Source: Elusimicrobiaceae bacterium
Lineage (GTDB): Bacteria; Elusimicrobiota; Elusimicrobia; Elusimicrobiales; Elusimicrobiaceae
Assembly (NCBI GenBank): GCA_017475405.1
Contig: JAFVFN010000006.1
Coordinates: forward strand, 62,001-126,000
Direction of reading: 5' to 3'
DNA length: 64,000 nucleotides
This document shows, piece after piece, positions 435 to 56,039 of this stretch (position 1 is the stretch's first letter; each line of letters opens with the position of its first letter). A model generated the notes under the pieces. It had not been told where the DNA came from and did not search any database. It saw only the letters and a program-made list of their open reading frames with translations. The position numbers and the translations under genes were made by a program.

Positions 435-1163
435 TTATTTTGCTTCCGCGGCCGGTTCTGATAACTGTTTTTCGGCCGGTTGGCGAGTTTCTGTAGGTAG
501 AGTTGCGACTGCATCCTCGTGCTTTAAAACGTTCGTTTTTTGGAGTCCCTGCGTATATTGCGCCCGGGCATCTACAATTTCCAGCAACAGCATTACTTGA
601 CGTAAATCGGTTTTTTCCGTTTCACTGAGTTGTTCATTAGCTGCCAAATAACTGGCAACAGCCCGTCCATCTGGTGTTACAAACGCCGGGTCTGCATGGG
701 CAATCAAAAGGGTCTTAATTACAGACAATGTATTATGACGGACAGCCATCAGCAATGCCTTATTTTTATTTTGCTGTTGGGCCGATGAAGTACCGCCCTG
801 CCGGGCCAGTACTTTGGTAATGACAGGGTTTGGATTATAGGCGGCCGCTATCATCAAGGGAGTATTTCCTTGTTTATCAGTAGCAAACGTATCCGCACCG
901 GCTAAGATTAATTTATGGATAATCTGTGGCTGGGAGGCATGGCGCGCCGCATAAAAAAGGGCTGTCTGTCCAGATTTATCGCGCATATTTACAGCATGCG
1001 AAGTTAGTAAATCATCCATTCTAGTCATATCGTTTTCTTCTAGGGCACGCATCAAACGTGTGGCGCCTCTAGAATCCGTTTCCTGAGCGAAATGACGATA
1101 GAGCAGTCCCCCGGAAATTAACCCTATAATGATACCTATCAATACCCATGTACTTTTTTTCAT
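435..1163 (-). CDS. Membrane-anchored ankyrin-repeat protein
   Basis: The 242-residue product starts with a single hydrophobic segment (residues 5-23, WVLIGIIIGLISGGLLY), then at least three ankyrin-type units between about 33 and 175: SGQTALFYAARHA, QGNTPLMIAAA and NKALLMAVRHN followed by VIKTLLIAHADP. The tail (about 195-242) is charged and rich in Pro, Ala and Glu and looks disordered. The expected topology is an N-in anchor with the repeats in the periplasm or on the cytoplasmic face; the sequence does not decide which. Ankyrin repeats mediate protein binding; the partner is unknown. No Shine-Dalgarno sequence precedes the ATG; instead TAAAAT ends 6 nt upstream, suggesting a leaderless mRNA. 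Confidence 0.8.
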   Translation of the reverse strand: MKKSTWVLIGIIIGLISGGLLYRHFAQETDSRGATRLMRALEENDMTRMDDLLTSHAVNMRDKSGQTALFYAARHASQPQIIHKLILAGADTFATDKQGNTPLMIAAAYNPNPVITKVLARQGGTSSAQQQNKNKALLMAVRHNTLSVIKTLLIAHADPAFVTPDGRAVASYLAANEQLSETEKTDLRQVMLLLEIVDARAQYTQGLQKTNVLKHEDAVATLPTETRQPAEKQLSEPAAEAK

Positions 1164-2768: not shown

Positions 2769-2805
2769 GCAGGCCTTCAGCTCCCTCTGAAGGCCTGCTT
2801 GTTTT
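2769..2805. terminator. Bidirectional intrinsic terminator between lysS and pilin 1
   Basis: The 12-bp stem GCAGGCCTTCAG / CTGAAGGCCTGC (2769-2780 with 2787-2798) is followed on the plus strand by TTGTTTT. Its position between convergent stops suggests use by both genes, although the minus-strand run is poorer in T. Confidence 0.8.
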
Positions 2806-3367
2806 AATATAGTTCGTAACACTTACTCCCTGTTCCACCACAAGAATAAGGGTTCCCTATTGATCTACAAAATTCTTTGCCAAAAGAACTTCCATTACTT
2901 TGCCAACAAGCACGAGTACCGGGATAGGCAAACTGACTGGTTGAATGGGCAGACCCAAACTCTATAATAAAATCTCTGTGTTCACTACAGGCTTCATAGG
3001 TTGTATTATAGCCTGGACAATAACTAGCGGCCACGCTTCCGGTATTATTAGCTGACGTATTTACTACAAAATCATTTCCACATCCCCAAAAATGACCTTC
3101 CAACCCACTTGCTTCCGAAGGTGGAAGTAGAGTGCAAGCTTCGGGAGTAATATCTAATGTCCGTGCATCAGTGGCATATTCTCCATTGGACAAATAATAA
3201 GCCTCCTGTGCTTTAAGTATATTCGCCAACATCGGCAAAATCGTACCGACCCGCGATTTTACGACTGCTTTTTTATACTGCGGTAACGCTACCGCTGCCA
3301 AAATACCTATAATCAGCACTACCACTAATAATTCGATCAACGTAAACGCCTTTTTATTTGGTTTCAT
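2804..3367 (-). CDS. Type IV pilin-like protein (pilE-like), copy 1
   Basis: Start chosen at 3367 (MKPNKKA, with GGAG 8 nt upstream). An in-frame ATG at 3568 would add 67 residues, but those codons lie across the structured RNA leader and do not resemble a pilin. The 187-residue product has a 7-residue leader ending in Ala (KKA|FTLIE, with Glu at +5), the hydrophobic helix [19 protein letters not shown], and the family motif AYYLSNGEYATDARTLDI. The distal half is unique and rich in Cys, Gly and Asn; near the end FCRSIGNPYSC supplies Cys likely to close a disulfide loop. It is probably an inner-membrane pilin or pseudopilin cut by a PilD-type peptidase. The Ala at -1 is atypical. The gene is solitary, convergent to lysS. 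Confidence 0.9.
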   Translation of the reverse strand: MKPNKKAFTLIELLVVVLIIGILAAVALPQYKKAVVKSRVGTILPMLANILKAQEAYYLSNGEYATDARTLDITPEACTLLPPSEASGLEGHFWGCGNDFVVNTSANNTGSVAASYCPGYNTTYEACSEHRDFIIEFGSAHSTSQFAYPGTRACWQSNGSSFGKEFCRSIGNPYSCGGTGSKCYELY

Positions 3368-3416
3368 AAATTTCTCCTTTTCCTTTTTCAACTCTCTATT
3401 ATGAAACCCATAAAGA

Positions 3417-3603
3417 ACGGCTGTCATGCCAAGCTTCACCAAAGCCCCAAGCACAACAGCCGTAGTTTCCTGCACAAAGCAGGAAACATTCGGCACAGTC
3501 AGGGCTCGAGACCTAACCGTACCTAAATCGGCTATTTTTGGACTTGGTGAAGCGTTTGGACTTTCCATACGGCTCCGTATTCTTTATACGGTTCCAAAAA
3601 CAG
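3417..3603 (-). promoter_or_regulatory. Structured pilin leader RNA element, copy A
   Basis: This 187-nt leader ends 49 nt before the pilin start. P1: CTGTTTTTGG with CCAAAAATAG. P2: CCGTAT with ATACGG. P2b: GTATGGA with TCCAAAC (one mismatch). P3, a pseudoknot joining the P1 loop to the P6 loop: GCTTCACCAA with TTGGTGAAGC. P4: GGTACGGTTAGG with CCCTGACTGTGCC. P5: GTTTCCTGC with GCAGGAAAC. P6: ACGGCTGTTGTGC with GCATGACAGCCGT, followed by TCTTTATG. The unpaired core AGCCGATTTAGGTAC is shared with the other copies. Which transcript uses it and what it senses are unknown. Confidence 0.8.
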
Positions 3604-10006: not shown

Positions 10007-10504
10007 TCAATGTATAACAAATACATCATACACGCCGCTAGCCACACCCATATAAGAACCCATTGTCTGACATACTTTTTTCCCACGTGAACTGTAGCTT
10101 CGACAGAAATACTGTCCTTTATAGACGCCAAAGTTCGCCGTACCTCTAAATGCCATTAAATGCACTGAGGCCGAACTAATTCCACACAAAACATACTCTC
10201 CAGAAATATCATACCAGGTCCCATTTTTCATTACACGTTGCAAATCTCCATTTACTTCAGATGGTTTCCCTGGAAAATCTATATCTAACTCGGAAAAACC
10301 TGATGCTAATTGCCCATTGGCTAAATAATAGGCCTCTTCTGCCGCTCGTAATGTTTTTAAACCTGACATACATTCAGCTGCTTTACTTTTATCTACTGCC
10401 AATTGATATTGTGGCAAAGCTACCGAAGCTAGAATTCCTATTATCAGTACCACAACTAAAAGTTCTATTAGCGTGAAGCCCCGCCGGGACCTTATTGTAT
10501 ACAT
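10007..10504 (-). CDS. Type IV pilin-like protein (pilE-like), copy 2
   Basis: The 165-residue product has a 9-residue basic leader ending in Gly (RRG|FTLIE, canonical type IV prepilin site with Glu+5), then [19 protein letters not shown]. The conserved AEEAYYLANGQ and ELDIDFPGK follow, then a variable region, and a C-terminal pair YFCRSYSSRGKKVCQTMG likely to form a disulfide loop. GGAG lies 11 nt before the ATG. It is a solitary gene facing away from the Nudix gene, with structured leader copy B upstream. Role in a pilus, a type II secretion pseudopilus or something else cannot be told. Confidence 0.9.
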   Translation of the reverse strand: MYTIRSRRGFTLIELLVVVLIIGILASVALPQYQLAVDKSKAAECMSGLKTLRAAEEAYYLANGQLASGFSELDIDFPGKPSEVNGDLQRVMKNGTWYDISGEYVLCGISSASVHLMAFRGTANFGVYKGQYFCRSYSSRGKKVCQTMGSYMGVASGVYDVFVIH

Positions 10505-10546
10505 TTTTATACGCTCCTGTTACTCTATTTCAGAACATACAAAAAT

Positions 10547-10732
10547 ACGGCCGTTATATCGGATCTCTGAAGAGAAATTCAATATAACAGCCGTGGTCTC
10601 CCATTCCAATGAATAGGAAATACTCGGCACAGAAAAGACTGCAGATCTTATCTGTACCTAAATCGGCTATTTTTGACCCTTCAGAGTACTTCGTTAGAAG
10701 TATCCCGTATTCTTCATACGGTTCAAAAATAG
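10547..10732 (-). promoter_or_regulatory. Structured pilin leader RNA element, copy B
   Basis: This 186-nt leader ends 42 nt before the pilin start. P1: CTATTTTTGA with TCAAAAATAG (perfect). P2: CCGTAT with ATACGG. P2b: TACTTC with GAAGTA. P3: CTCTGAAG with CTTCAGAG. P4: GGTACAGA with TCTGTGCC plus AAGA with TCTT. P5: TTTCCTATTC with GAATGGGAGA. P6: ACGGCTGTTATAT with ATATAACGGCCGT, followed by ATTTTTG. The core AGCCGATTTAGGTAC is identical to copy A, although P3, P4 and P5 differ in sequence. Confidence 0.8.
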
Positions 10733-15719: not shown

Positions 15720-16223
15720 CTATGGTAACCGAAAACAGGTATATTCTCCTAAATAAGGACAAGAAACAGCTTTTCCAAAAGTTTTGCAAATTTTCATAGA
15801 TTTACTATCTGCATTGTGGGCTTCGCAATACATCGTATCGTCAGTTAAGGAATATACAATATACCATCTACCATCATCCTTAGACTGTCCCTGTCCTGTT
15901 CTTGCTGCAAATACACGCTCATTTTTTATATTCTTCACTTGCCCCAAAGAAAGATACCAATAGTTCTGATGGACCTCTATCCCTCTATTGCTTCCCAAAA
16001 AATCTATATCCAAATCTGCAAATGAATTGGTATATTCCCCATTAGCAAGATAATATACTTTTTCTGCATCAGCTAAAGCCTTCACCTGTGTAATGGCCTC
16101 AGAGGCATGTGCCTTTTCCACCGCCAATTGATATTGCGGTAACGCCACGGCCGCTAAAATTCCTATTATAAGCACAACTACTAAGAGCTCTATGAGTGTA
16201 AATGCTTGTTTATTTTGATACAT
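15720..16223 (-). CDS. Type IV pilin-like protein (pilE-like), copy 3
   Basis: The 167-residue product has the leader MYQNKQA and site A|FTLIE (Ala at -1, Glu+5), then [19 protein letters not shown]. The family motif VYYLANGEYTNSFADLDIDF follows; the distal half is variable and ends with MYCEAHNADSKSMKICKTFG and a further Cys pair. AAGGAG lies about 11 nt before the ATG. Unlike most copies it has no structured RNA leader; it uses a promoter with a twelve-T spacer, shared with the pilin at 39746. It lies upstream of ndk on the same strand with no clear terminator between. Confidence 0.9.
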   Translation of the reverse strand: MYQNKQAFTLIELLVVVLIIGILAAVALPQYQLAVEKAHASEAITQVKALADAEKVYYLANGEYTNSFADLDIDFLGSNRGIEVHQNYWYLSLGQVKNIKNERVFAARTGQGQSKDDGRWYIVYSLTDDTMYCEAHNADSKSMKICKTFGKAVSCPYLGEYTCFRLP

Positions 16224-16267
16224 TTATTTCATTCTCCTTATATTATGATTTTTATCCCTATAAAGAG

Positions 16268-16295
16268 AAAATATCAAAAAAAAAAAATGCGTCAA
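16268..16295 (-). promoter_or_regulatory. Pilin promoter with T12 homopolymer spacer, copy 1
   Basis: On the minus strand: TTGACG, then CA, twelve T, GA (16-nt spacer), then TATTTT. From the T-run through CTCTTTATAGGG the sequence is identical to that before the pilin at 39746. Homopolymer spacers of this kind vary in length by slipped-strand mispairing in known phase-variable promoters. Confidence 0.55.
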
Positions 16296-20715: not shown

Positions 20716-20748
20716 AAAAAGTGCACATTGAAAAATGTGCACTTTTTT
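20716..20748 (+). terminator. Intrinsic terminator of the POT gene
   Basis: The stem AAAAAGTGCACATT / AATGTGCACTTTTT has a 4-nt loop and runs into a T-tract. The right arm overlaps the spacer of the putative promoter of pilin 4. Confidence 0.85.
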
Positions 20749-20756
20749 ACTATACT
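20728..20756 (+). promoter_or_regulatory. Possible promoter of pilin leader copy C
   Basis: TTGAAA (20728-20733) and TATACT (20751-20756) are exactly 17 nt apart, just upstream of leader copy C. The TTGAAA lies in the loop and arm of the POT terminator, so it is only a candidate. Confidence 0.45.
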
Positions 20757-20772
20757 GTTAATACAATTTATT

Positions 20773-20967
20773 CTGTTTTTGGAACCGTTTAAGAAACGGT
20801 GCGCTTTGGAAACAAACGCAGGATTGAAGACCAAAAACAGTCGTTTTAGGTACATAACAAAGAGAATTGCAAGCTCACTGCTATGTACTGAATGTTTATC
20901 GCTTTTTTGTGATAAACTACGGCTGTTATAACCAGGGCACTTCAATCCTCCTGCGAGTAGCAGCCGT
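20773..20967 (+). promoter_or_regulatory. Structured pilin leader RNA element, copy C
   Basis: This 195-nt leader ends 41 nt before the pilin start. P1: 20773-20782 with 20831-20840 (CTGTTTTTGG / CCAAAAACAG, perfect). P2: 20784-20790 with 20794-20800 (ACCGTTT / AAACGGT). P2b: 20801-20808 with 20813-20819. P3 pseudoknot: 20821-20829 with 20940-20948 (GGATTGAAG / CTTCAATCC). P4: 20849-20856 with 20882-20889. P5: 20894-20900 with 20911-20917 (GTTTATC / GATAAAC). P6: 20919-20925 with 20961-20967 (ACGGCTG / CAGCCGT), then TTTTATT. It is the most diverged copy, so its preserved pairing is the strongest evidence for the fold. Confidence 0.85.
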
Positions 20968-21008
20968 TTTTATTGGATTTTATAAACAGAAAATATAAGG
21001 AGAAGAGG

Positions 21009-21512
21009 ATGAAACATAATAAAGATGGATTCACACTTATTGAATTGCTGGTCGTTGTGCTGATAATAGGTATTTTAGCAGCAGTGGCATTACCACAATA
21101 TCAACTGGCGGTAGAAAAAACAAGGTTATCAACTTTGTTACCTGTCATTAAAAGTTTGTCTGATGCACAACAAATCTATTTTCAGACAAATGGAGAGTTT
21201 GCACCACGATTAGATATCTTGGATATTGAGTTGCCTGCTGGAGGAAACTTAAATGAACAGGGTACAAAGATCAATTATCCAAACGGCAATGTGATTGATA
21301 TTTGGGTCGGGCAAGCAGAAGGCGATAATAGCAGTTCTGTTCGGGGACTCATTGATACAAATGCTTCTTATTTAGTGGAGTATTACAATGACGGACGCCG
21401 GATGTGCTATGCTAAAAAAGGAAACTCCCTAGCTAATAAAGTATGTAAAAGTTTAGCTAAAGGAGATGCAACACCTATCGAAGGGACAACTCATATTGAG
21501 TACGCTCTTTAA
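21009..21512 (+). CDS. Type IV pilin-like protein (pilE-like), copy 4
   Basis: Start chosen at 21009 (MKHNKDG), with AAGGAGAAG upstream; an in-frame ATG at 20973 would add 12 unrelated residues. The 167-residue product has the canonical site [26 protein letters not shown], then a conserved-position QIYFQTNGEFAPRLDILDIEL (a variant of YYLANGEY). The distal half is unique; near the end RMCYAKKGNSLANKVCKSLA supplies the Cys pair. It is solitary, with leader copy C upstream and its own terminator downstream. Confidence 0.9.
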   Translation: MKHNKDGFTLIELLVVVLIIGILAAVALPQYQLAVEKTRLSTLLPVIKSLSDAQQIYFQTNGEFAPRLDILDIELPAGGNLNEQGTKINYPNGNVIDIWVGQAEGDNSSSVRGLIDTNASYLVEYYNDGRRMCYAKKGNSLANKVCKSLAKGDATPIEGTTHIEYAL

Positions 21513-24340: not shown

Positions 24341-27300
24341 TTATTCTTCTTGTCCAGCATTCGGATCAAATGAGGCACCGTACCCAATATTTTGATATTG
24401 GAACTGCAATTCAATTGCAATCTGATACAAAATTCCTTGAAATTGCTGCTCAGCCTGTGCCACTTGCGCGGCCTGTGCTTGTTGATTGGTTACCTGCAAA
24501 GCTTCGCAGCGTTGTGTAGCATAGGTTCGAGCGGCTTGGCGAATGCGTTGCTGTACGGCCGGGCTTACGATATCTGGCATAGCAGAATAGTCCGCTTTGA
24601 ACTGTGCAATTAACGATTCAGCTTCTTTCAAGGCACCGTCCCAAATTGCAGCCTGTAAAATTAATGTTTCCGTGTTTTGGTTAAAGCGCTCGCCCGCTTG
24701 CGTGGCTTCTTCCTGTGTTGCGCAAGCCAAGAATTCCTGCGCATAGGTTTGATAAGCACGGTGCAAGTCCTTTTTTACCTGCGGCAGTGCGGCAAAGCCT
24801 TTTGCGTACATAGCCAGCAATTGCTGCTCACTGGACTCAATTAAAGCACGTTGTTCCTGTTGCCACTGGGCAGTTGCCTTTTTATTTTCAGTAAACTGGT
24901 TATGTCGCTGTGTTAAAAGGGCCCGATTCAAATCAACGCGGTGTGCCTGATAGGCATAATCCACTTTCGTGGCATCATCCAAAAACGACCTCCCGGCTAT
25001 CCGGCTCGCCGACACAATAGGAGCGGTAATCAACATCCCTTCATTCTGAGGTTTTTGCGCCTGCATAACAGCTTCATAGGTGCCCATTGCACGCTGATCC
25101 GACAAATCAACTCCTAAATCCTGCAACAGCAGTTCATCCATCTTGGCACGCTGCGGATCAAACGTATCACCGTATTTTGCAATCTCGGCATTGGCATCTT
25201 TGAGAGCTTCGTTTTGCATCCATCCTAGAAACGGAGAAGATACTACATAATCGGCCCCATACCAGGCACCTAATACCCCCGTGGAAATACTAAACCGGTT
25301 ACGCCATAACATCTGAGGCAATAACTGTACTCCTAAAGCTGGATTCGCGCGCACAGAATTCCAAAAAGTAGCAGATGGCACATAATCGGGCAAGAAAGTT
25401 TTGCTGATTGTGTTTTGCCAATTCATCGGTCTAAAATACGCATCAAACATCTGGCGACGCAGATTTCCGGTCATTACATCAGCACCCGTAGTATAAAAAC
25501 CGGGCAGCAATTCTGGTACATTCGCAATTCCTTCAGGATCCATAATGCGGCTTGAACTACTACGCGTAAAATTAAGAGCCGTCCGCGGAGCTACATAGAA
25601 AGGCATCTTACCACTTACAATAGGTGACATGCCTTGCGGATGCATTCCCCAGCGCATATTCCACCATTTTGTGGTTGCCCCCACAGTCCCTGCTTGTTGG
25701 GCCGATTCCCCCATCGGGACCCATAAATCTACTTGATTTTTAAGCGAGGACTCTAAACCGCCAAGCAACATTTGTTCCGTCTGAGCCTGACGCAAATCCA
25801 AGATAGCCTGCCAATAAGGTTTGGTTTCATAGACCATGGCCGAGGCAGGGTCATTAACTAGACGTAATTGACTCCATGCTTGCTCAATATCTCTCATGGA
25901 ATGAAAGCCGCTAACGGGTTGTTCAAATGTAGTTTCTGCTACGGTAGTTTTAAACCCAGGTTCTAGACGAGTTACACGCATTCCCACTATATTCTGTTGC
26001 GGTTGCATTCCAACCCAACGTTTAGGGTTCCAATGCGAATATTGACCTTGCAACTGATAGGTATGATTAACCGGGCGCGCCTCAATGGTAGGAGAAACTG
26101 AACGTACGGGACCTACTTCAGTAGTACGAGCGGCAGAAACTCCTTTTACGGCTTGAGGTTCTTTTTCTACTAGCAACTCTACAAAATAACCTTGTTGGTT
26201 TTTGTTCTTATACACCCAGTTTGCAAATTTGGCCCCTTGGCGAATTTCCGCATTAAACGCAGCCACACGCTCTCCGTTGGCAGCTACCCGGAAAGCACGC
26301 CCTGCCTTGGGGAGTGCCGCCACGGCTCCGCGCGTTAAACGAAATGCCGTTCCCACAAATGCGAATAATTCTCCGCCGTACACCCAAAATATAGCCTCTG
26401 CCGTAAATACAAAGAAAGCCGTTCGATATTCGTCATTTTTCTTGGTACGATTGGGTTCGTTTTTCAGTGTAATATGACACTGGGTACTTGGATAATTAGC
26501 ACGAGCCTGTGTACTGGCCGGTTTATCTGCATCCTCAAAAAACGCCGTATGAATATCATAAAACCCGTCATAAATATAAGCCAATTTATCAGCCAAAGCC
26601 TGCATTTGTTGCGAATCCAATCCGTAACTTTGCATACCGTAAGTAGACTGGTTGGTTAACGGACAATACAACTCAGCTACACGGGCCGCAAACAAACGAC
26701 GCAGGTTTTCATCGGGTTTATTTAAATTAAGCGGTGCAAAGACAGCAAACGCCGGTTGCGTATTTTGCGTATTAAACGAGTCCTGATTAAACGGACGGAA
26801 TAACAATCCTGCCGCTTCTAAGGCAAAAATACGGGTAGGAAGTGAATATTTTTCCGGATCGGAAAAATCCGTTAATAAAGACAATACCTTTTGAGTCTTC
26901 GCTTCACTCATCGCAGCATACCGTGTATTTTCAAAAACGGTTGTAAAAATCGCGTTTAAAATCGGAGAATAATCTCTGTTAAAATCACCAGCCTTCACTT
27001 TACCGTGCAAATCATGTTTGACCCCTTCATCAAAGATACTCACAATATCTTTTACGACTTCCGGCTTATATTCCAGTGCATAGGCCGTTGCGTATTCGGC
27101 CAATGCTTGTAAATAGCGATATTCATAGGACCCTTGATCCGGCTTGTCATTTTTGGCCTGCCTTAATTCCGACATAAACAGATTCATAAAAGCTGCCAAA
27201 TTCCCATGTTCCGCTACGGTCTGGGCTGCTTTTCTTTTGGCAGTTGCTTGCGCTTGTCTCTTTTGACTCTCTGTTTGCTGAGGTGCACGTAAAGTTCTGC

Positions 27301-28156
27301 GATCCCCCTCTAAAGAAACCAACAAATTAGGTCTTTGAGATGCCATCATTTGGCGACTTAACATTTCGGTCTGATAAGCATCGGCAGGATCTTCCAGTCC
27401 CTTGGTTTGATAAAATTGATGGATCTTAAACAAAGTCATACGCAGCGTGCCCATAGCCATCGCGTGTTCAATAGAATTACTACCATACGTCGGCTGCAGG
27501 GCCGCGCGGGATAACGATACAGGAGTTTTAGCTGTGTTAGCCGTATAAGAAGGAGCCTCAAAGCCTAACAAAGCCATACGCCATAACAACCGAGCTTCTA
27601 TTTGCGGCAAAACTTTTTGCAATTCACTTGAATCATACTGTGAAGCGTCTAGTTGAATCGCCTCACTCACAGTATTTCCGATGATTTCCGCGGCATAGGC
27701 AATCGTCGTTAAATCATTATTTTCTATGGCCGGATCCATTGGATCGGCATACTCAATGAGTTCTTCAAACGAAATCTCGTTATTTTCCACTTTTCGTAAA
27801 AAAGTTTTTGCAGGGGAAAGAAGCTTTCGTTGTAGCGGTGCCACGCGCGGAGCCACATAGGTAGAACTAGCCACTGCCGTATAAGAAGGATTTAAAGCAG
27901 CCTGGTTGCGTTGCTGGGCAGCCAACGAATCTGCCTGCGCAAAGCGTTCCTGATGCGCCTGACGCGCCGCGGCATCGGCTTTGGCAAACAGTGCCGCCGG
28001 AGAATTATCCTCCTGGGCCTTTTGAACTTGTTGATTAACGCGCGTATCCAACGACCGAGCGTTGGAACGACTAGTCGTCTGTCCCCACCCGGCCGAGGGA
28101 ACACAACAATTCACTAAAAATGTAAACGCCAATACGCGACAAAAGAATGTATGCAT
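24341..28156 (-). CDS. Very large secreted protein of unknown function
   Basis: I do not recognise this 1271-residue protein. It has a signal peptide (residues 1 to about 26, with hydrophobic VLAFTFLVNCCVP and a likely cut after GWGQ). The N-terminal half is helical and rich in Ala, Gln and Leu. Around 590-640 a hydrophobic stretch, FVFTAEAIFWVYGGELFAFVGTAF, could be a TM pair or amphipathic region. The C-terminal 300 residues are Gln- and Ala-rich coiled coil (for example QAQAAQVAQAEQQFQGILYQ). There is one AGGAG 6 nt before the ATG. It is flanked by a terminator and a promoter-sized gap and is probably monocistronic. Signal and size suggest a periplasmic or surface protein, possibly lineage-specific. 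Confidence 0.8.
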   Translation of the reverse strand: MHTFFCRVLAFTFLVNCCVPSAGWGQTTSRSNARSLDTRVNQQVQKAQEDNSPAALFAKADAAARQAHQERFAQADSLAAQQRNQAALNPSYTAVASSTYVAPRVAPLQRKLLSPAKTFLRKVENNEISFEELIEYADPMDPAIENNDLTTIAYAAEIIGNTVSEAIQLDASQYDSSELQKVLPQIEARLLWRMALLGFEAPSYTANTAKTPVSLSRAALQPTYGSNSIEHAMAMGTLRMTLFKIHQFYQTKGLEDPADAYQTEMLSRQMMASQRPNLLVSLEGDRRTLRAPQQTESQKRQAQATAKRKAAQTVAEHGNLAAFMNLFMSELRQAKNDKPDQGSYEYRYLQALAEYATAYALEYKPEVVKDIVSIFDEGVKHDLHGKVKAGDFNRDYSPILNAIFTTVFENTRYAAMSEAKTQKVLSLLTDFSDPEKYSLPTRIFALEAAGLLFRPFNQDSFNTQNTQPAFAVFAPLNLNKPDENLRRLFAARVAELYCPLTNQSTYGMQSYGLDSQQMQALADKLAYIYDGFYDIHTAFFEDADKPASTQARANYPSTQCHITLKNEPNRTKKNDEYRTAFFVFTAEAIFWVYGGELFAFVGTAFRLTRGAVAALPKAGRAFRVAANGERVAAFNAEIRQGAKFANWVYKNKNQQGYFVELLVEKEPQAVKGVSAARTTEVGPVRSVSPTIEARPVNHTYQLQGQYSHWNPKRWVGMQPQQNIVGMRVTRLEPGFKTTVAETTFEQPVSGFHSMRDIEQAWSQLRLVNDPASAMVYETKPYWQAILDLRQAQTEQMLLGGLESSLKNQVDLWVPMGESAQQAGTVGATTKWWNMRWGMHPQGMSPIVSGKMPFYVAPRTALNFTRSSSSRIMDPEGIANVPELLPGFYTTGADVMTGNLRRQMFDAYFRPMNWQNTISKTFLPDYVPSATFWNSVRANPALGVQLLPQMLWRNRFSISTGVLGAWYGADYVVSSPFLGWMQNEALKDANAEIAKYGDTFDPQRAKMDELLLQDLGVDLSDQRAMGTYEAVMQAQKPQNEGMLITAPIVSASRIAGRSFLDDATKVDYAYQAHRVDLNRALLTQRHNQFTENKKATAQWQQEQRALIESSEQQLLAMYAKGFAALPQVKKDLHRAYQTYAQEFLACATQEEATQAGERFNQNTETLILQAAIWDGALKEAESLIAQFKADYSAMPDIVSPAVQQRIRQAARTYATQRCEALQVTNQQAQAAQVAQAEQQFQGILYQIAIELQFQYQNIGYGASFDPNAGQEE

Positions 28157-38576: not shown

Positions 38577-39764
38577 ATGAAAATCAAGCGGCTTTTTCTT
38601 ATTTTATTTTTGCTTAACCTGCTTAACTACATTGACAGGCAGGTGCTTTATGCCGTTTTCCCGTTGCTTCAAAACGATTTAGGATTAAATGATTTGCAAC
38701 TAGGCACCCTGGCCTCTGCCTTTATGCTGATTTACATGTGCTACGCCCCTGTCATAGGGTACTTGGCAGATCGGATGAACCGACCTAAACTGATTGCCCT
38801 GAGTGCTCTTCTTTGGAGTGGAGCCACCCTGGCCTGTGCAACGGCTAAAAACTATGTTTCTTTGCTAATTCCGCGGGCATTGATTGGCGTAGGAGAAGGC
38901 GGGTTTACCACCATCGCGCAGCCCTTTTTGGCAGAGCATTATCCCAAAGAAAAGCACGCTTCTTTGTTGGCCATCTTCGGACTGGCGCTTCCCGTTGGCA
39001 GTGCCCTGGGGTATGTGCTAGGCGGTGTAGTAGGAAAGCACTGGGGTTGGCGTATTGCCTTTATGGCGGCCGGGATCCCCGGCGTATTTTTAGCTATATT
39101 GGCCTGGGTTTTTTTAAAAGACAAGTCACGCGAAATCCAAACTGTACGACCTACTTTAAAAGATTATTTCCCCTTATTTAAAAACAAACCGTTTTTAAGT
39201 GTATGTTTTGCACAGGCCATGAGTACATTTGTCATGGGAGGGCTGTCTGCGTGGATGCCCATGTATTTACACCGTTATTTACATGTAGATGCCGCGCAGG
39301 CAGGCCTGCAATTTGGCATTCTGGTCATTGTATGCGGAGCAGCCGGTACCTATCTGGGCGGTAGAACAGCGGCCTGGCTACTTACACGTACTCAAAATGT
39401 CTATTATAAACTGATCGCAGGTTGTTTTTTGGCGACACTTCCTTTTTGTTGGCTGACACTCTCTATGACACATACACTTAGCGTACTGACTTGTTTGGGA
39501 ATAGCACTTATTCTGCTGTTCATGCCGACAGGAGCCATTGCAGCAGCCTTGGTAGATACTACGTCACAAAATATTCGTTCTATGGCGTTTGCCGTAAATA
39601 TTTTTATTATCCATTTACTAGGTGATGCGATATCACCTACACTCGTAGGGTTGGTATCTGATATGTGGAGTTTAAAAATAGCAGTATTTTGTGCCAGTTT
39701 AATGCTTGTGCCAGGGGCTTGGGTAAGTATACGTACCCAAAAAAATCAATTAATTACAAAATAA
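38577..39764 (+). CDS. MFS transporter, Spinster-like
   Basis: The 395-residue protein has 12 predicted TMs. NYIDRQVLYAVFPLLQNDLG in TM1, GYLADRMNRPKLIALSALLWSG as the MFS signature between TM2 and TM3, and PRALIGVGEGGFTTIAQPFLAEHYP are features of the Spinster-like branch of MFS. The substrate is unknown; Spinster homologues carry lysolipids or sphingosine phosphates in eukaryotes, and bacterial relatives are diverse. No Shine-Dalgarno sequence is clear. Its last 19 bp overlap the end of the convergent pilin at 39746. Confidence 0.82.
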   Translation: MKIKRLFLILFLLNLLNYIDRQVLYAVFPLLQNDLGLNDLQLGTLASAFMLIYMCYAPVIGYLADRMNRPKLIALSALLWSGATLACATAKNYVSLLIPRALIGVGEGGFTTIAQPFLAEHYPKEKHASLLAIFGLALPVGSALGYVLGGVVGKHWGWRIAFMAAGIPGVFLAILAWVFLKDKSREIQTVRPTLKDYFPLFKNKPFLSVCFAQAMSTFVMGGLSAWMPMYLHRYLHVDAAQAGLQFGILVIVCGAAGTYLGGRTAAWLLTRTQNVYYKLIAGCFLATLPFCWLTLSMTHTLSVLTCLGIALILLFMPTGAIAAALVDTTSQNIRSMAFAVNIFIIHLLGDAISPTLVGLVSDMWSLKIAVFCASLMLVPGAWVSIRTQKNQLITK

Positions 39765-40270
39765 TTACCGACGGCCCAACTATAGTGATCCCAACCTGTA
39801 AACAAAATACCTCCCATACTTTGGCAAATAGATTTTACGCTTTCGTTCTTCTTGCCGCTACTTCCTAAATGACAAAAAAATTTACTGCCACTATCATTTA
39901 CTCCGTGTTTTTCACGATAAAAATTGAATTCAAAATTTGGCATATTGGCATTTCCTGTATGAGCAGCACAATAATTTATTGTGCAGGTATAGACATAACT
40001 GTTCTCCGGTAACTCTTCTCCAGAATCCTCTATCAAACCACTGGGGACTTCTATATCCAACTCACTAATATCTGCTGTATGCTCTCCATTTGCCAAATAA
40101 TATACTTCTTGCGCTTGGACAATAGTTTTTAACATGGTTAAGGCCTCTGTCGCACGGCTCTTATAAACCGCTTTTTGATACTGAGGAACCGCTATGACCG
40201 CTAAAATACCTATGATGAGCACAACTACCAAAAGCTCAATTAATGTAAATGCTCTTTGATTTCTTTGCAT
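39746..40270 (-). CDS. Type IV pilin-like protein (pilE-like), copy 5
   Basis: The 174-residue product has leader MQRNQRA and site A|FTLIE, then [23 protein letters not shown]. The motif VYYLANGEHTADISELDIEVP follows; distal variable region has YTCTINYCAAHTG and the C-terminal pair FFCHLGSSGKKNESVKSICQSMG. GGAG lies 8 nt before the ATG. The stop is inside the convergent MFS gene by 19 bp, with no terminator between. Like the pilin at 15720 it has the T12-spacer promoter and lacks the structured leader. Confidence 0.9.
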   Translation of the reverse strand: MQRNQRAFTLIELLVVVLIIGILAVIAVPQYQKAVYKSRATEALTMLKTIVQAQEVYYLANGEHTADISELDIEVPSGLIEDSGEELPENSYVYTCTINYCAAHTGNANMPNFEFNFYREKHGVNDSGSKFFCHLGSSGKKNESVKSICQSMGGILFTGWDHYSWAVGNYFVIN

Positions 40271-40307
40271 ATATCTCTCCTTATAAAGTTTTAAGCCCTA
40301 TAAAGAG

Positions 40308-40335
40308 AAAATATCAAAAAAAAAAAACAATGCAA
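40308..40335 (-). promoter_or_regulatory. Pilin promoter with T12 homopolymer spacer, copy 2
   Basis: On the minus strand: TTGCAT, then TG, twelve T, GA (16-nt spacer), then TATTTT and CTCTTTATAGGG. Spacer length, T count and the sequence downstream are the same as at 16268-16295, whereas the -35 region differs. Confidence 0.55.
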
Positions 40336-43772: not shown

Positions 43773-44300
43773 CTATTTATCCAACCAATATACATAGTCC
43801 CATCCATTCTTCCAGGGAAGTTCCTGTCCTATTCCTAAAGAACGACAAACATTCCGTTGGAATTCTCCTCCTGCCGATAAACATAGTCTATCGCCTTTTT
43901 GTGCTTGCCAAACATCATCATCTTGAAAAAACTCTACATAGCGAATATTCTTGATCCCCACTTGTACATTTGTTGGGCCATCAAATACTCCATAAGTCCA
44001 AAGACCATTTTTCCCCTCGCTACATTTATAATATTCTGCTTTCTCATTATGATAATAATTACAGTTATCTATCGGCATATCAATATCCAACTTTGTTAAA
44101 TCAGTGGTATATTCTCCGTTTGCTAAAAAGTAGGATTCTTCCGCTTGTAATAATGACCTTGCTACAAAAAGCACTCTAGATAATTCAGCTTTCTTCACAG
44201 CCTTCTGATACTGAGGTACAGCGACTGCCGCTAGTATTCCTATAACCAAGACTACCACTAAAAGTTCAATTAACGTGAACCCATTTTGTATTTTTTTCAT
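43773..44300 (-). CDS. Type IV pilin-like protein (pilE-like), copy 6
   Basis: Start chosen at 44300 (MKKIQNG), with AAGGAA upstream; an in-frame ATG at 44522 would add 74 residues encoded by leader copy D. The 175-residue product has NG|FTLIE (canonical), [23 protein letters not shown] and SYFLANGEYTTDLTKLDIDMP, then a variable part and RLCLSAGGEFQRNVCRSLG near the end. It is solitary, downstream of rlmI on the same strand without a clear terminator between them. Confidence 0.9.
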   Translation of the reverse strand: MKKIQNGFTLIELLVVVLVIGILAAVAVPQYQKAVKKAELSRVLFVARSLLQAEESYFLANGEYTTDLTKLDIDMPIDNCNYYHNEKAEYYKCSEGKNGLWTYGVFDGPTNVQVGIKNIRYVEFFQDDDVWQAQKGDRLCLSAGGEFQRNVCRSLGIGQELPWKNGWDYVYWLDK

Positions 44301-44343
44301 ACTTATATTCCTTTTGTCTGTTTTCGGCCCTAGGGCATAAAAA

Positions 44344-44527
44344 ACGGCTATTATACCCGGGCAACAAAACAGTCCCAAAATATAACAGCCGTAATTTCCC
44401 ACCTTTACAGGCAGGAAACATTCGATAACCGTACGCTTGCAATCGCACGGGTACCTCAATCGGCTATTTTGGCGTTTTGTTGTGTGGCACAGGGCCACAA
44501 CTACTGCTTTGAGCAGTTCCAAAATAG
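44344..44527 (-). promoter_or_regulatory. Structured pilin leader RNA element, copy D
   Basis: This 184-nt leader ends 43 nt before the pilin start. P1: CTATTTTGG with CCAAAATAG. P2: ACTGCT with AGCAGT. P2b: GTTGTGGC with GCCACACAAC. P3: CAACAAAAC with GTTTTGTTG. P4: CCGTGCG with CGTACGG plus GGTA with TATC. P5: GTTTCCTGCC with GGTGGGAAAT. P6: ACGGCTGTTATA with TATAATAGCCGT, 12 bp, followed by a run of T that makes it the most terminator-like of the six. The core reads AGCCGATTGAGGTAC. Confidence 0.82.
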
Positions 44528-50087: not shown

Positions 50088-50271
50088 CTATTTTTGAGCC
50101 GTATAGAGAATACGGGATTGCTTCGCAAGAAGTACTCAGGTAAGTCAGAAATAGCCGATTTAGGTGCAAAATGGCGACGGTCATTTTGTGCCAAGTGTTT
50201 CCTACCCGCAAGGGCAGGAAACTACGGCTGTTATGTTGGGCATCTTACCTGAGGTCTGACGTAGCAGCCGT
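50088..50271 (+). promoter_or_regulatory. Structured pilin leader RNA element, copy E
   Basis: This 184-nt leader ends 42 nt before the pilin start; TATAAT lies at 50058-50063. P1: CTATTTTTG with CAGAAATAG (one G-U). P2: CCGTAT with ATACGG. P2b: CTTC with GAAG, loop GCAA. P3: CTCAGGTAAG (50135-50144) with CTTACCTGAG (50244-50253). P4: GGTGCAAAATG with CATTTTGTGCC. P5: GTTTCCTACCC with GGGCAGGAAAC. P6: ACGGCTGTTATG with CGTAGCAGCCGT, followed by CATTTTAG. Core AGCCGATTTAGGTGC. Confidence 0.82.
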
Positions 50272-50313
50272 CATTTTAGATACCTCAAGATAGAAAAAAG
50301 AGAGGTAAATAAA

Positions 50314-50856
50314 ATGAATATCAAAAATAAGTGGAATGGTTTCACGCTCATAGAATTACTCGTAGTTGTGCTCATAATAGGCATCTTAGCTGCGGTAGCA
50401 GTCCCGCAATATCAAAAAGCAGTAGAAAAAAGTAAAACAAGTGAAGTACTTTCTCTTTTAAAATCCCTGGGCCAAGCGCAACGAGCATATTATTTGGCTA
50501 ATGGAAAATATGCTACTACTTTTGAAGAATTAGATATAGAAATACCCTCTTCTTTTTCTGGTACCTCACATTGCATAACCTATCCCAATGCGGTACGTTC
50601 TAACCAAGATTGGGCAATAGAAATTATCAATAATGGAGTTCAAATAGAAGTATGTCGCATATCCGGAAAATATGCAGGAGGAGCTTTTTGGTGGAACGCC
50701 GGAGATGATACTATACTATGTATGGAACGAGGAAACAATAGCGGCCTTATCACATTGGCAGATACAGATAAAGGACTTTTTTGTAAAAATCTTTTAAATA
50801 AATCTTTTGTCACGAACATCTCAAATGGATTTATACGTCAATACTCTAGAATTTAA
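50314..50856 (+). CDS. Type IV pilin-like protein (pilE-like), copy 7
   Basis: The 180-residue product has a 9-residue leader ending [31 protein letters not shown] and [21 protein letters not shown], then a variable region rich in Asn, Gly and Trp, and [27 protein letters not shown] near the end, with a wider Cys spacing than its relatives. GAGAGG lies 8 nt before the ATG. It is solitary, between lplA (divergent) and the gcv operon (convergent). Confidence 0.9.
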
Positions 50857-55283: not shown

Positions 55284-55480
55284 CTGTTTTTGAATCGTAT
55301 TAAAGAATACGAGTTAACTTACAAAAGTTATACACAGAGGTCAAAAACAGCCGAATTAGGCACAAGATAAAAGGCTTTATAACCCTGATATTTTGTGTTG
55401 AGTGTTTGTTACTTGCAAAAGTAACCAACCACGGCTGTTATGTTTAGAGACTCTCTGTGTACTCTAGGTGTGGCAGCCGT
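55284..55480 (+). promoter_or_regulatory. Structured pilin leader RNA element, copy F
   Basis: This 197-nt leader ends 37 nt before the pilin start. P1: CTGTTTTTGA with TCAAAAACAG (perfect). P2: TCGTATT with AATACGA. P2b: TAACTT with AAGTTA. P3: TACACAGAG (55331-55339) with CTCTGTGTA (55453-55461). P4: GGCACAAGATA with TATTTTGTGTT. P5: GTTTGTTACTT with AAGTAACCAAC. P6: ACGGCTG with CAGCCGT, extended to 11 bp with wobbles, followed by TCTTTTATT. Core AGCCGAATTAGGCAC. Confidence 0.83.
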
Positions 55481-55517
55481 TCTTTTATTGCAAAAACAGG
55501 AATTGTAAGGAGAAATT

Positions 55518-56039
55518 ATGAAAAATAAACAAGCATTTACGCTCATTGAGTTACTTGTCGTTGTACTAATTATAGGAATATTGGCGGCAGTTGCACTGCC
55601 ACAATATCAAAAAGCTGTATTAAAAAGCCGATATAGCACTATGAAACCAATTGTAAAAGCGCTTATAGAGGCAGAAGAAGTTTATTATTTAGCCAATGGA
55701 GATTATACTCTGGATTTAACAGAATTAGATGTCGAACTGCCAACCCCCGACTTTTTAGATACGACTTCACAAACATATCCAATTTTTGAGTATAAGTGGG
55801 GAAAGTGTTTTAGCAATTTGAAGGGAATAGTTACATGTAAATTAACTCCTACTTCCATAAGCTATGCTATAGGGGCGCTACACCTTTCGTCCCCTTCATA
55901 TCTAGCATGGATCGGCAAACAAGTCTGTCAGGCTAGAACTTCCAATATTTATGCCAAACAAATCTGCCAACAAGAGTCTGGGGCTATAACACCCTCTGGC
56001 TTAACACCTACTGAACTTACGGAATATTACGTATGGTAA
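55518..56039 (+). CDS. Type IV pilin-like protein (pilE-like), copy 8
   Basis: The 173-residue product has the shortest leader, KNKQA|FTLIE (Ala at -1), then [23 protein letters not shown] and VYYLANGDYTLDLTELDVELP. The distal half is variable, with CFSNLKGIVTC and a C-terminal QVCQARTSNIYAKQICQQES. AAGGAG lies 8 nt before the ATG. It is solitary between gcvT (divergent) and the YgjP-like gene; there is no clear terminator after it. Confidence 0.9.
   Translation: MKNKQAFTLIELLVVVLIIGILAAVALPQYQKAVLKSRYSTMKPIVKALIEAEEVYYLANGDYTLDLTELDVELPTPDFLDTTSQTYPIFEYKWGKCFSNLKGIVTCKLTPTSISYAIGALHLSSPSYLAWIGKQVCQARTSNIYAKQICQQESGAITPSGLTPTELTEYYVW

Follow-up and report, generated by a model that had tools for sequence, protein, structure and literature searches.

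A pseudoknotted candidate leader RNA, present in many copies before pilin-like genes in Elusimicrobiota

What kind of RNA keeps two distant strands complementary while their sequences turn over completely, and what might it do for the genes that follow? The question is raised by a 64,000-nucleotide (nt) stretch of an Elusimicrobiaceae bacterium (assembly GCA_017475405.1, contig JAFVFN010000006.1, positions 62,001 to 126,000; hereafter the window, meaning the whole stretch analysed), in which six related leaders lie upstream of genes. A preliminary description, centred on one of these, hereafter the named locus (Table 1), had proposed that in all six a strand beside the 3' arm of helix P1 pairs with a strand in the loop of hairpin P6, forming a helix, P3, and with it a compact pseudoknot of a ligand-binding or catalytic kind. 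Comparison among copies indicates that the leader is a class of ~200-nt cis-regulatory 5' leader RNAs, of which we found no earlier description, and establishes the pseudoknot; the leader probably acts as a bistable transcription attenuator.

P3 pairs in every reference copy despite unrelated strands

All six strand pairs quoted in the preliminary description are present in the window, and at the named locus P3 is one pair longer than quoted, with ten Watson-Crick pairs between AGGATTGAAG and CTTCAATCCT. Its 3' strand does lie in the apical loop of P6, but above a further short P6 helix (UUGGG/CUCAA type) rather than in an open loop.

As a reference set, 118 of the ~127 copies in the window's own genome (1.68 Mb in 30 contigs) were fetched and aligned. 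P3 was present in all 118 and likewise in all 29 copies tested from other species, at lengths of 7-14 base pairs among the copies tested, although the 118 5' strands are all distinct. In the reference set the P3 score averaged 10.0 within copies (minimum 7) and 4.75 between copies; a score of at least 8 was reached by 98% of copies but by only 1.0% of between-copy comparisons. Within-copy scores so far above between-copy scores exclude chance for P3. The copies from other species gave a mean of 9.8 (minimum 8) versus 4.9 between copies, and when further copies were checked for lost complementarity, P3 scored at least 8 in 48 of 52 of a phylum-wide set and in all 29 from other species.

All four Watson-Crick types occur at each of P3 pairs 1-9, with very few G-U pairs at positions 2-9. 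A formal pair count was made on an alignment of the 29 other-species copies fitted to a model without P3: both sides vary at all ten P3 pairs, and, register slips notwithstanding, pairing holds in 75.5% of P3 cells. For the whole structure, 93.4% of cells were paired compared with 75.9% in shuffles, none of 500 shuffles was as good, and 52 of 73 pairs showed two-sided changes. Interior G-U pairs make up 1.0% of P3, 14-15% of P4 and P5, and 2-5% of P2a and P2b. Because P3 contains almost no G-U despite complete sequence turnover, staying almost purely Watson-Crick, its changes seem rarely to pass through wobble intermediates. Between similar copies, P3 diverges faster than P2b, P4 and P5.

A fold of seven compatible helices

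Helices P1, P2a, P2b, P3, P4, P5 and P6 can form simultaneously, and for every one of them pairing is better inside a copy than across copies. This holds for P4, P5 and P2b in 97-99% of copies, for P2a in 92%, for the upper part of P6 in 87% and for P1 in 83%. Comparison of copies demonstrates pairing of P2 to P6, and supports P1 less strongly. An R-Y pair on the far side of a one-base bulge closes P5 in all 118 copies. A further candidate, pairing of CCAA of P1 with UUGG of P6, was dropped since UUGG is not conserved among copies.

P3 also fits a fully nested alternative together with two other helices, P0 and P7 (see below), so P3 alone is no proof of a knot. The pseudoknot stands because P3 crosses P1 and P6, both of which have pairing evidence of their own. 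P3 adjoins P1 at 0-1 nt in 118 of 118 copies, suggesting that the two helices stack, and we infer a P6-P3-P1 rod. The pseudoknot of the preliminary description is thus well supported, whereas for a ligand-binding or catalytic function there is no sign of cleavage, the features seen being those of an attenuator-like switch with a self-complementary P4 tip. Conserved unpaired bases are few (near-invariant bases in the junction J1/4 and an invariant A in J4/5); they would allow ligand or protein binding. As a separate observation, J1/4 (window 20841-20844) falls into two nearly exclusive classes, CCGA and TCGT/CTGT, and the choice between them correlates with nothing else in the leader.

The leader precedes surface genes throughout the genome and in two families

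A covariance model, R1, was built from 46 copies with nested helices only, P3 being left out. On the window's own genome it found 127 full-length copies at an expectation value (E) of at most 1e-16, amounting to 25 kb, and a DNA search that scored at least 40 candidate places likewise showed copies spread throughout. The gene after each of the six window copies carries the type IV pilin motif N_methyl (Pfam), and in 114 of the 118 reference copies a pilin-like reading frame starts 0-130 nt 3' of the leader. The other four stand before polysaccharide genes: two group 1 glycosyltransferases (Pfam) and, judged by eye, a family 2 glycosyltransferase and an ATP-grasp-like gene. With at least 150 N_methyl genes in this 1.68-Mb genome (51-144 in five relatives), some pilin-like genes must lack the leader.

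Among close relatives, R1 matched 33 of 61 genomes (own included), all of the same genus. Across the phylum, 84 of 295 genomes had matches under strict filters, in two genera of one family (f1) and five of another (f15) and nowhere else in the sample; a laxer search later found weak copies in genus g13. Named contigs with the leader belong to Elusimicrobium, Elusimicrobiaceae and Endomicrobia-type metagenome-assembled genomes, mostly from guts and rumens, and genomes carry from a few to ~90 or more copies. In other species the leader precedes pilins, outer-membrane barrels, lipoprotein-like genes, a zinc-ribbon membrane protein and glycosyltransferases, so that the associated genes form a cell-surface set. 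Outside Elusimicrobiota, hairpin-pattern matches occurred in many phyla and reached at most ~24-32 bits with the covariance model (single hairpins), six loci among the matches listed being unscored; within these searches, the leader appears to occur in Elusimicrobiota only. A single diverged copy was seen in a sister-genus genome assembled as one contig of 1,643,562 bp (G090; locus L302, 1501-1670), and the gene after it is a zinc-ribbon membrane protein of the same kind as at L081, L209 and L265.

At the gathering cut-off of Rfam 15, the whole window yielded two tRNAs only and the leader matched no family; at the leader locus nothing relevant, including any riboswitch likeness, appeared up to E 5. 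The element was also not found in literature on pilins, riboswitches and RNA motifs of Elusimicrobia and Endomicrobia, a search outside which most subscription papers lay.

The P4 tip is self-complementary

The apical loop of P4 carries a central palindrome of at least 6 nt in 84 of 118 copies and of at least 4 nt in 111, compared with 23 and 74 in shuffles. When distinct P4 loops of at least 6 nt were counted, with the 29 other-species copies included, all 32 had a palindrome of at least 4 nt and 23 one of at least 6, versus 12 and 2 in shuffles, so comparison establishes these palindromes as it does helices P2 to P6; in the control loops of P5, P2a and P2b palindromes were at chance. There are ~15 kinds, including UAAUUA, UUAUAA, UUCGAA, UUGCAA, UCAUGA, CUCGAG, CAGCUG, GGCC, GAUC, AGCU and GUAC, and many lie in a 9-nt loop that leaves two bases on the 5' side of the palindrome and one on the 3' side. 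Six of the seven copies without a palindrome carry a GACG tetraloop, which is the self-complementary (kissing) loop of SL1/SL2 in Moloney murine leukaemia virus (MoMuLV) (PMC7357161). In OLE RNAs, switching among GGCC, GAUC and AGCU has been taken as evidence of contacts between identical RNA molecules (PMC12286853).

Palindromic tips, GACG tetraloops and the OLE precedent together lead to a strong structural prediction: leader RNAs with like tips would dimerize by kissing, the P4 loop of one probably contacting another leader RNA that bears the same loop. An extension of this idea that we regard as speculative and unlikely is a genome-wide network, in which more than 100 leaders would recognize each other through ~15 tips, kissing between like tips would bias the attenuator, and the private P3 of each copy would prevent cross-pairing of folds. 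If so, expression of pilin and other surface genes would depend on which other pilin mRNAs are present.

Mutually exclusive helices suggest a transcription attenuator

Two alternative helices, supported by comparison but less strongly than P2 to P6, compete with the fold described above. In the first, P7, the 5' arm of P6, CGGCUGUU, can find a partner in the P1 3' strand plus the three bases after it (AACAGYYG); all 8 pairs of P7 are possible in 101 of 118 copies, and it is mutually exclusive with the terminator-like P6. Where the YYG part (the CCG part) of P7 has a wobble, an additional T usually stands opposite the A of ACGG (53 of 59 versus 1 of 46, p 7e-22), and this T has no other correlated partner. 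In sister genus g13 (L302, L303) both P7 strands have, by eye, changed together, a UAAUCG-type strand facing a CGAUUA- or CGGUUA-type strand, and a T run follows P6 at both loci.

In the second, P0, the start of the leader can pair with a GGTTTCATAAACAG-like sequence 5' of the ribosome site. The within-copy duplex averages -11.6 kcal/mol, compared with -10.3 between copies and -6.3 when shuffled. Contiguous pairs hardly differ (7.0 within versus 6.8 between), so that gapped duplex energies alone separate the two, and we rank P0 as weaker for this reason.

At least five T occur in the 9 nt after the CCG of P6 in 117 of 118 copies. In predicted folding, leaders cut at the end of P6 adopted P1 and P6 in 95% of copies, and of those extended to the ribosome site ~35% switched to P0, P3 and P7. 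The second partners in P7 and P0, the U-rich stretch and this shift in folding together give the layout of a transcription attenuator, the reading that we favour. We infer termination and the identity of the ON state, as we do dimer formation, OFF and ON being assigned because P6 is terminator-like. In the OFF state, P1, P2, P4, P5 and P6 would form, P3 would tie the P6 loop to the strand beside P1, and P6 with its U-rich tail would halt RNA polymerase ahead of the pilin gene. In the ON state, the P1 3' strand would pair with the P6 5' arm as P7, destroying the terminator, and the released P1 5' strand would pair as P0 with the strand just 5' of the ribosome site. P3 could persist through both states as a hinge. 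The start of transcription is predicted from a sigma-70-like promoter that is a consensus match only (10 of 12 positions; one found versus ~1.2 expected by chance); comparable TATA boxes lie 5' of other copies.

Several points weigh against this model. In many copies the U run is short or broken, its leading part being shorter than four in 44 of 118, and a simple terminator scan, which allows only loops shorter than that of P6, did not flag P6. Since the P7 strands barely vary within the genus, most of what supports P7 is changes in one strand together with two loci from another genus, and shared descent could account for the association of the wobble with the extra T. Some copies have a weak P0, and its covariation is modest. 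The two most frequent P4 palindromes, UAAUUA and UUAUAA, are all A-U and are predicted to yield ~-0.5 kcal/mol as plain duplexes, so that A-U-only tips may be weak.

Alternative explanations

One version of the attenuator reading names a specific kind of signal: a true riboswitch, in which a small molecule bound at the P1/P4/P5/P6 junction decides which of the two states forms, a possibility to which we give appreciably less weight than to attenuation as such. The conserved unpaired bases of J1/4 and J4/5 would suit this, as would the surface-structure regulon of pilins, outer-membrane barrels and glycosyltransferases. For pili and polysaccharides, a fitting ligand would be a second messenger, cyclic di-GMP for instance: cyclic di-GMP riboswitches precede surface-structure genes elsewhere, and three GGDEF matches in the genome would agree with this ligand. 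However, there are few invariant unpaired bases for an aptamer, no Rfam riboswitch likeness even at E 5, including no covariance match to GEMM-I or GEMM-II, and no biosynthesis or transport gene pointing to a ligand.

We consider it unlikely that a dedicated RNA-binding protein or antitermination factor recognizes the fold, as in RfaH/LoaP- or EAR-like systems of polysaccharide and pilus operons. The gene kinds are the same, the RNA lies in the leader and the junction bases are conserved, but one NusG-family gene was found and no NusG paralogue (the genome is 93% complete), and the targets in this genome look to be mostly single short genes, for which processive antitermination is of little use.

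There is a similarly small chance that the leader determines the fate of the mRNA, with P4 kissing linking mRNAs and setting their stability or location while P6 is merely a structural stem. The palindrome of at least 4 nt in all 32 distinct P4 loops, the six further copies with GACG kissing tetraloops and the capacity of P0 to close the 5' end agree with such a role, which leaves P7 and the U-rich run after P6 unexplained and would need kisses that may be too weak where they are A-U only.

Were the leader a small mobile or repeated DNA element, its terminal inverted repeats would be the 5' strand of P1 and the downstream strand. This reading would account for ~127 copies with imperfect inverted repeats at their ends but is very improbable given that copies diverged yet stayed paired at the RNA level, that 114 of 118 are oriented towards the start of one gene kind and that the structure is conserved across genera and two families. 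A self-cleaving ribozyme, which the compact pseudoknotted fold might recall, is equally improbable, as no Rfam ribozyme family matches (in the window, or at the locus up to E 5) and most invariant positions fall within P1, P5 and the P6 base rather than in a catalytic-looking core.

Relation to known RNAs

Like transcription-attenuating riboswitches and leaders (HMP-PP 'thiS', preQ1, SAM-II), the element combines a 5' leader position with a pseudoknot or terminator-embedded structure and a terminator-like hairpin that has a mutually exclusive partner; unlike them, it has no family match and a self-complementary P4 tip. To our knowledge, its copies in one genome exceed those of any riboswitch class. 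Cyclic di-GMP riboswitches (GEMM-I/II) likewise precede pilin and surface genes at many places in a genome, but have another fold and are Rfam families that the leader does not match. The EAR element and RfaH/LoaP leaders likewise place a structured leader before polysaccharide or pilus genes; here the targets are mostly single genes, there is one NusG gene only and no family matches.

The P4 tip has its closest likenesses elsewhere. OLE and GOLLD/ROOL RNAs show a loop palindrome switching among GGCC, GAUC and AGCU, all three of which occur in the leader, but those are long noncoding RNAs with cryo-electron microscopy structures, whereas ours is a 200-nt mRNA leader known from sequence alone (PMC12286853). 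The kissing hairpins of the human immunodeficiency virus 1 dimerization initiation site and of SL1/SL2 in MoMuLV and Moloney murine sarcoma virus have an apical loop that holds a palindrome of six bases, in many cases flanked by two bases on its 5' side and one on its 3' side, and the latter have GACG tetraloops; they serve retroviral genome packaging and have GC-rich palindromes, whereas many leader tips are A-U rich (PMC7357161). Termite-flg and Termite-leu (listed in PMC2864571) are orphan structured RNAs of termite gut communities, where Elusimicrobiota live, and the leader matches neither Rfam family.

The leader appears to be an undescribed regulatory RNA class, confined to one phylum in the searches made and present on a very large scale beside pilus and surface genes of gut bacteria. 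Its many paralogues in one cell form an unusually deep natural covariation data set and make it possible to test directly whether mRNA leaders pair with one another because of self-complementary loops, a kind of pairing documented chiefly in viruses and in a small number of large noncoding RNAs.

Table 1. Predicted features of the leader at the named locus, its surroundings and the other copies in the window
Feature	Position	Strand	Remarks
Sigma-70-like promoter, TTGAAA-17-TATACT	20728..20756	+	predicted start ~10 nt before P1
Leader RNA, named locus	20773..20971	+	R1 168.7 bits, E 3e-44; locus belongs to R1 training set
P1 5' strand, CUGUUUUUGG	20773..20782	+	also within P0 5' strand
P2a hairpin	20785..20799	+	CCGUUU/AAACGG
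P2b hairpin	20801..20819	+	
P3 5' strand, AGGAUUGAAG	20820..20829	+	within-copy complementarity
P1 3' strand, CCAAAAACAG	20831..20840	+	
P7 5' strand, AACAGUCG	20836..20843	+	alternative, antiterminator-like
P4 long hairpin	20849..20889	+	apical loop AAUUGCAAG 20865-20873; palindrome UUGCAA 20867-20872
P5 hairpin	20892..20918	+	outer R-Y pair A20892-U20918 beyond one-base bulge
P6 hairpin, ACGGCUGUUA ... UAGCAGCCGU	20919..20967	+	terminator-like; U-rich tail 20967-20974
P7 3' strand, CGGCUGUU	20920..20927	+	P6 5' arm
P3 3' strand, CUUCAAUCCU	20940..20949	+	apical loop of P6; within-copy complementarity
P0 3' strand, GGAUUUUAUAAACAG	20975..20989	+	complementary to leader start
Ribosome-binding site, AAGGAG	20997..21002	+	read from sequence
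Type IV pilin-like gene (N_methyl)	21009..21512	+	Pfam PF07963, E 3.7e-9
Leader copy	3413..3603	-	before pilin-like gene in open reading frame (ORF) 2804-3568 (-); R1, strand pairs and Pfam
Leader copy	10543..10732	-	before pilin-like gene 10007-10504 (-); R1, strand pairs and Pfam
Leader copy	44340..44527	-	before pilin-like gene in ORF 43773-44522 (-); TTG start of ORF falls inside leader
Leader copy	50088..50275	+	before pilin-like gene 50314-50856 (+); P4 tip is GACG tetraloop
Leader copy	55284..55484	+	before pilin-like gene 55518-56039 (+); R1, strand pairs and Pfam
P3 spans of the six copies	3433-3553, 10565-10686, 20821-20948, 44362-44482, 50135-50253, 55331-55461	-, -, +, -, +, +	strand pairs as first quoted

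Neighbouring observations

At two polysaccharide-locus copies (L157, from 304; L158, 3' of the copy at 451-684 (-)) the leader is followed by a hairpin, AGGATTCCAAgaaaTTGGGATCCT, and a T run. This hairpin has a 5' arm complementary to the beginning of the leader itself. Both loci also have, downstream, a second stretch that resembles a degenerate leader and carries another P4-like tip. Elsewhere in the window, a reading frame of 1271 amino acids (24341-28156 (-)) matched nothing in Pfam at E 0.001.

Two pilin-like genes that lack the leader (15720-16223 and 39746-40270) share an upstream sequence, T(9+)GATATT[TC]TCTC, ~35-60 nt before the ATG (sites at 16265-16284 (-) and 40305-40324 (-)). The window's own genome holds 54 exact copies of it, compared with none of a reversed control. 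The T homopolymer lies within a promoter-like spacer, which suggests slipped-strand phase variation at these leaderless genes.
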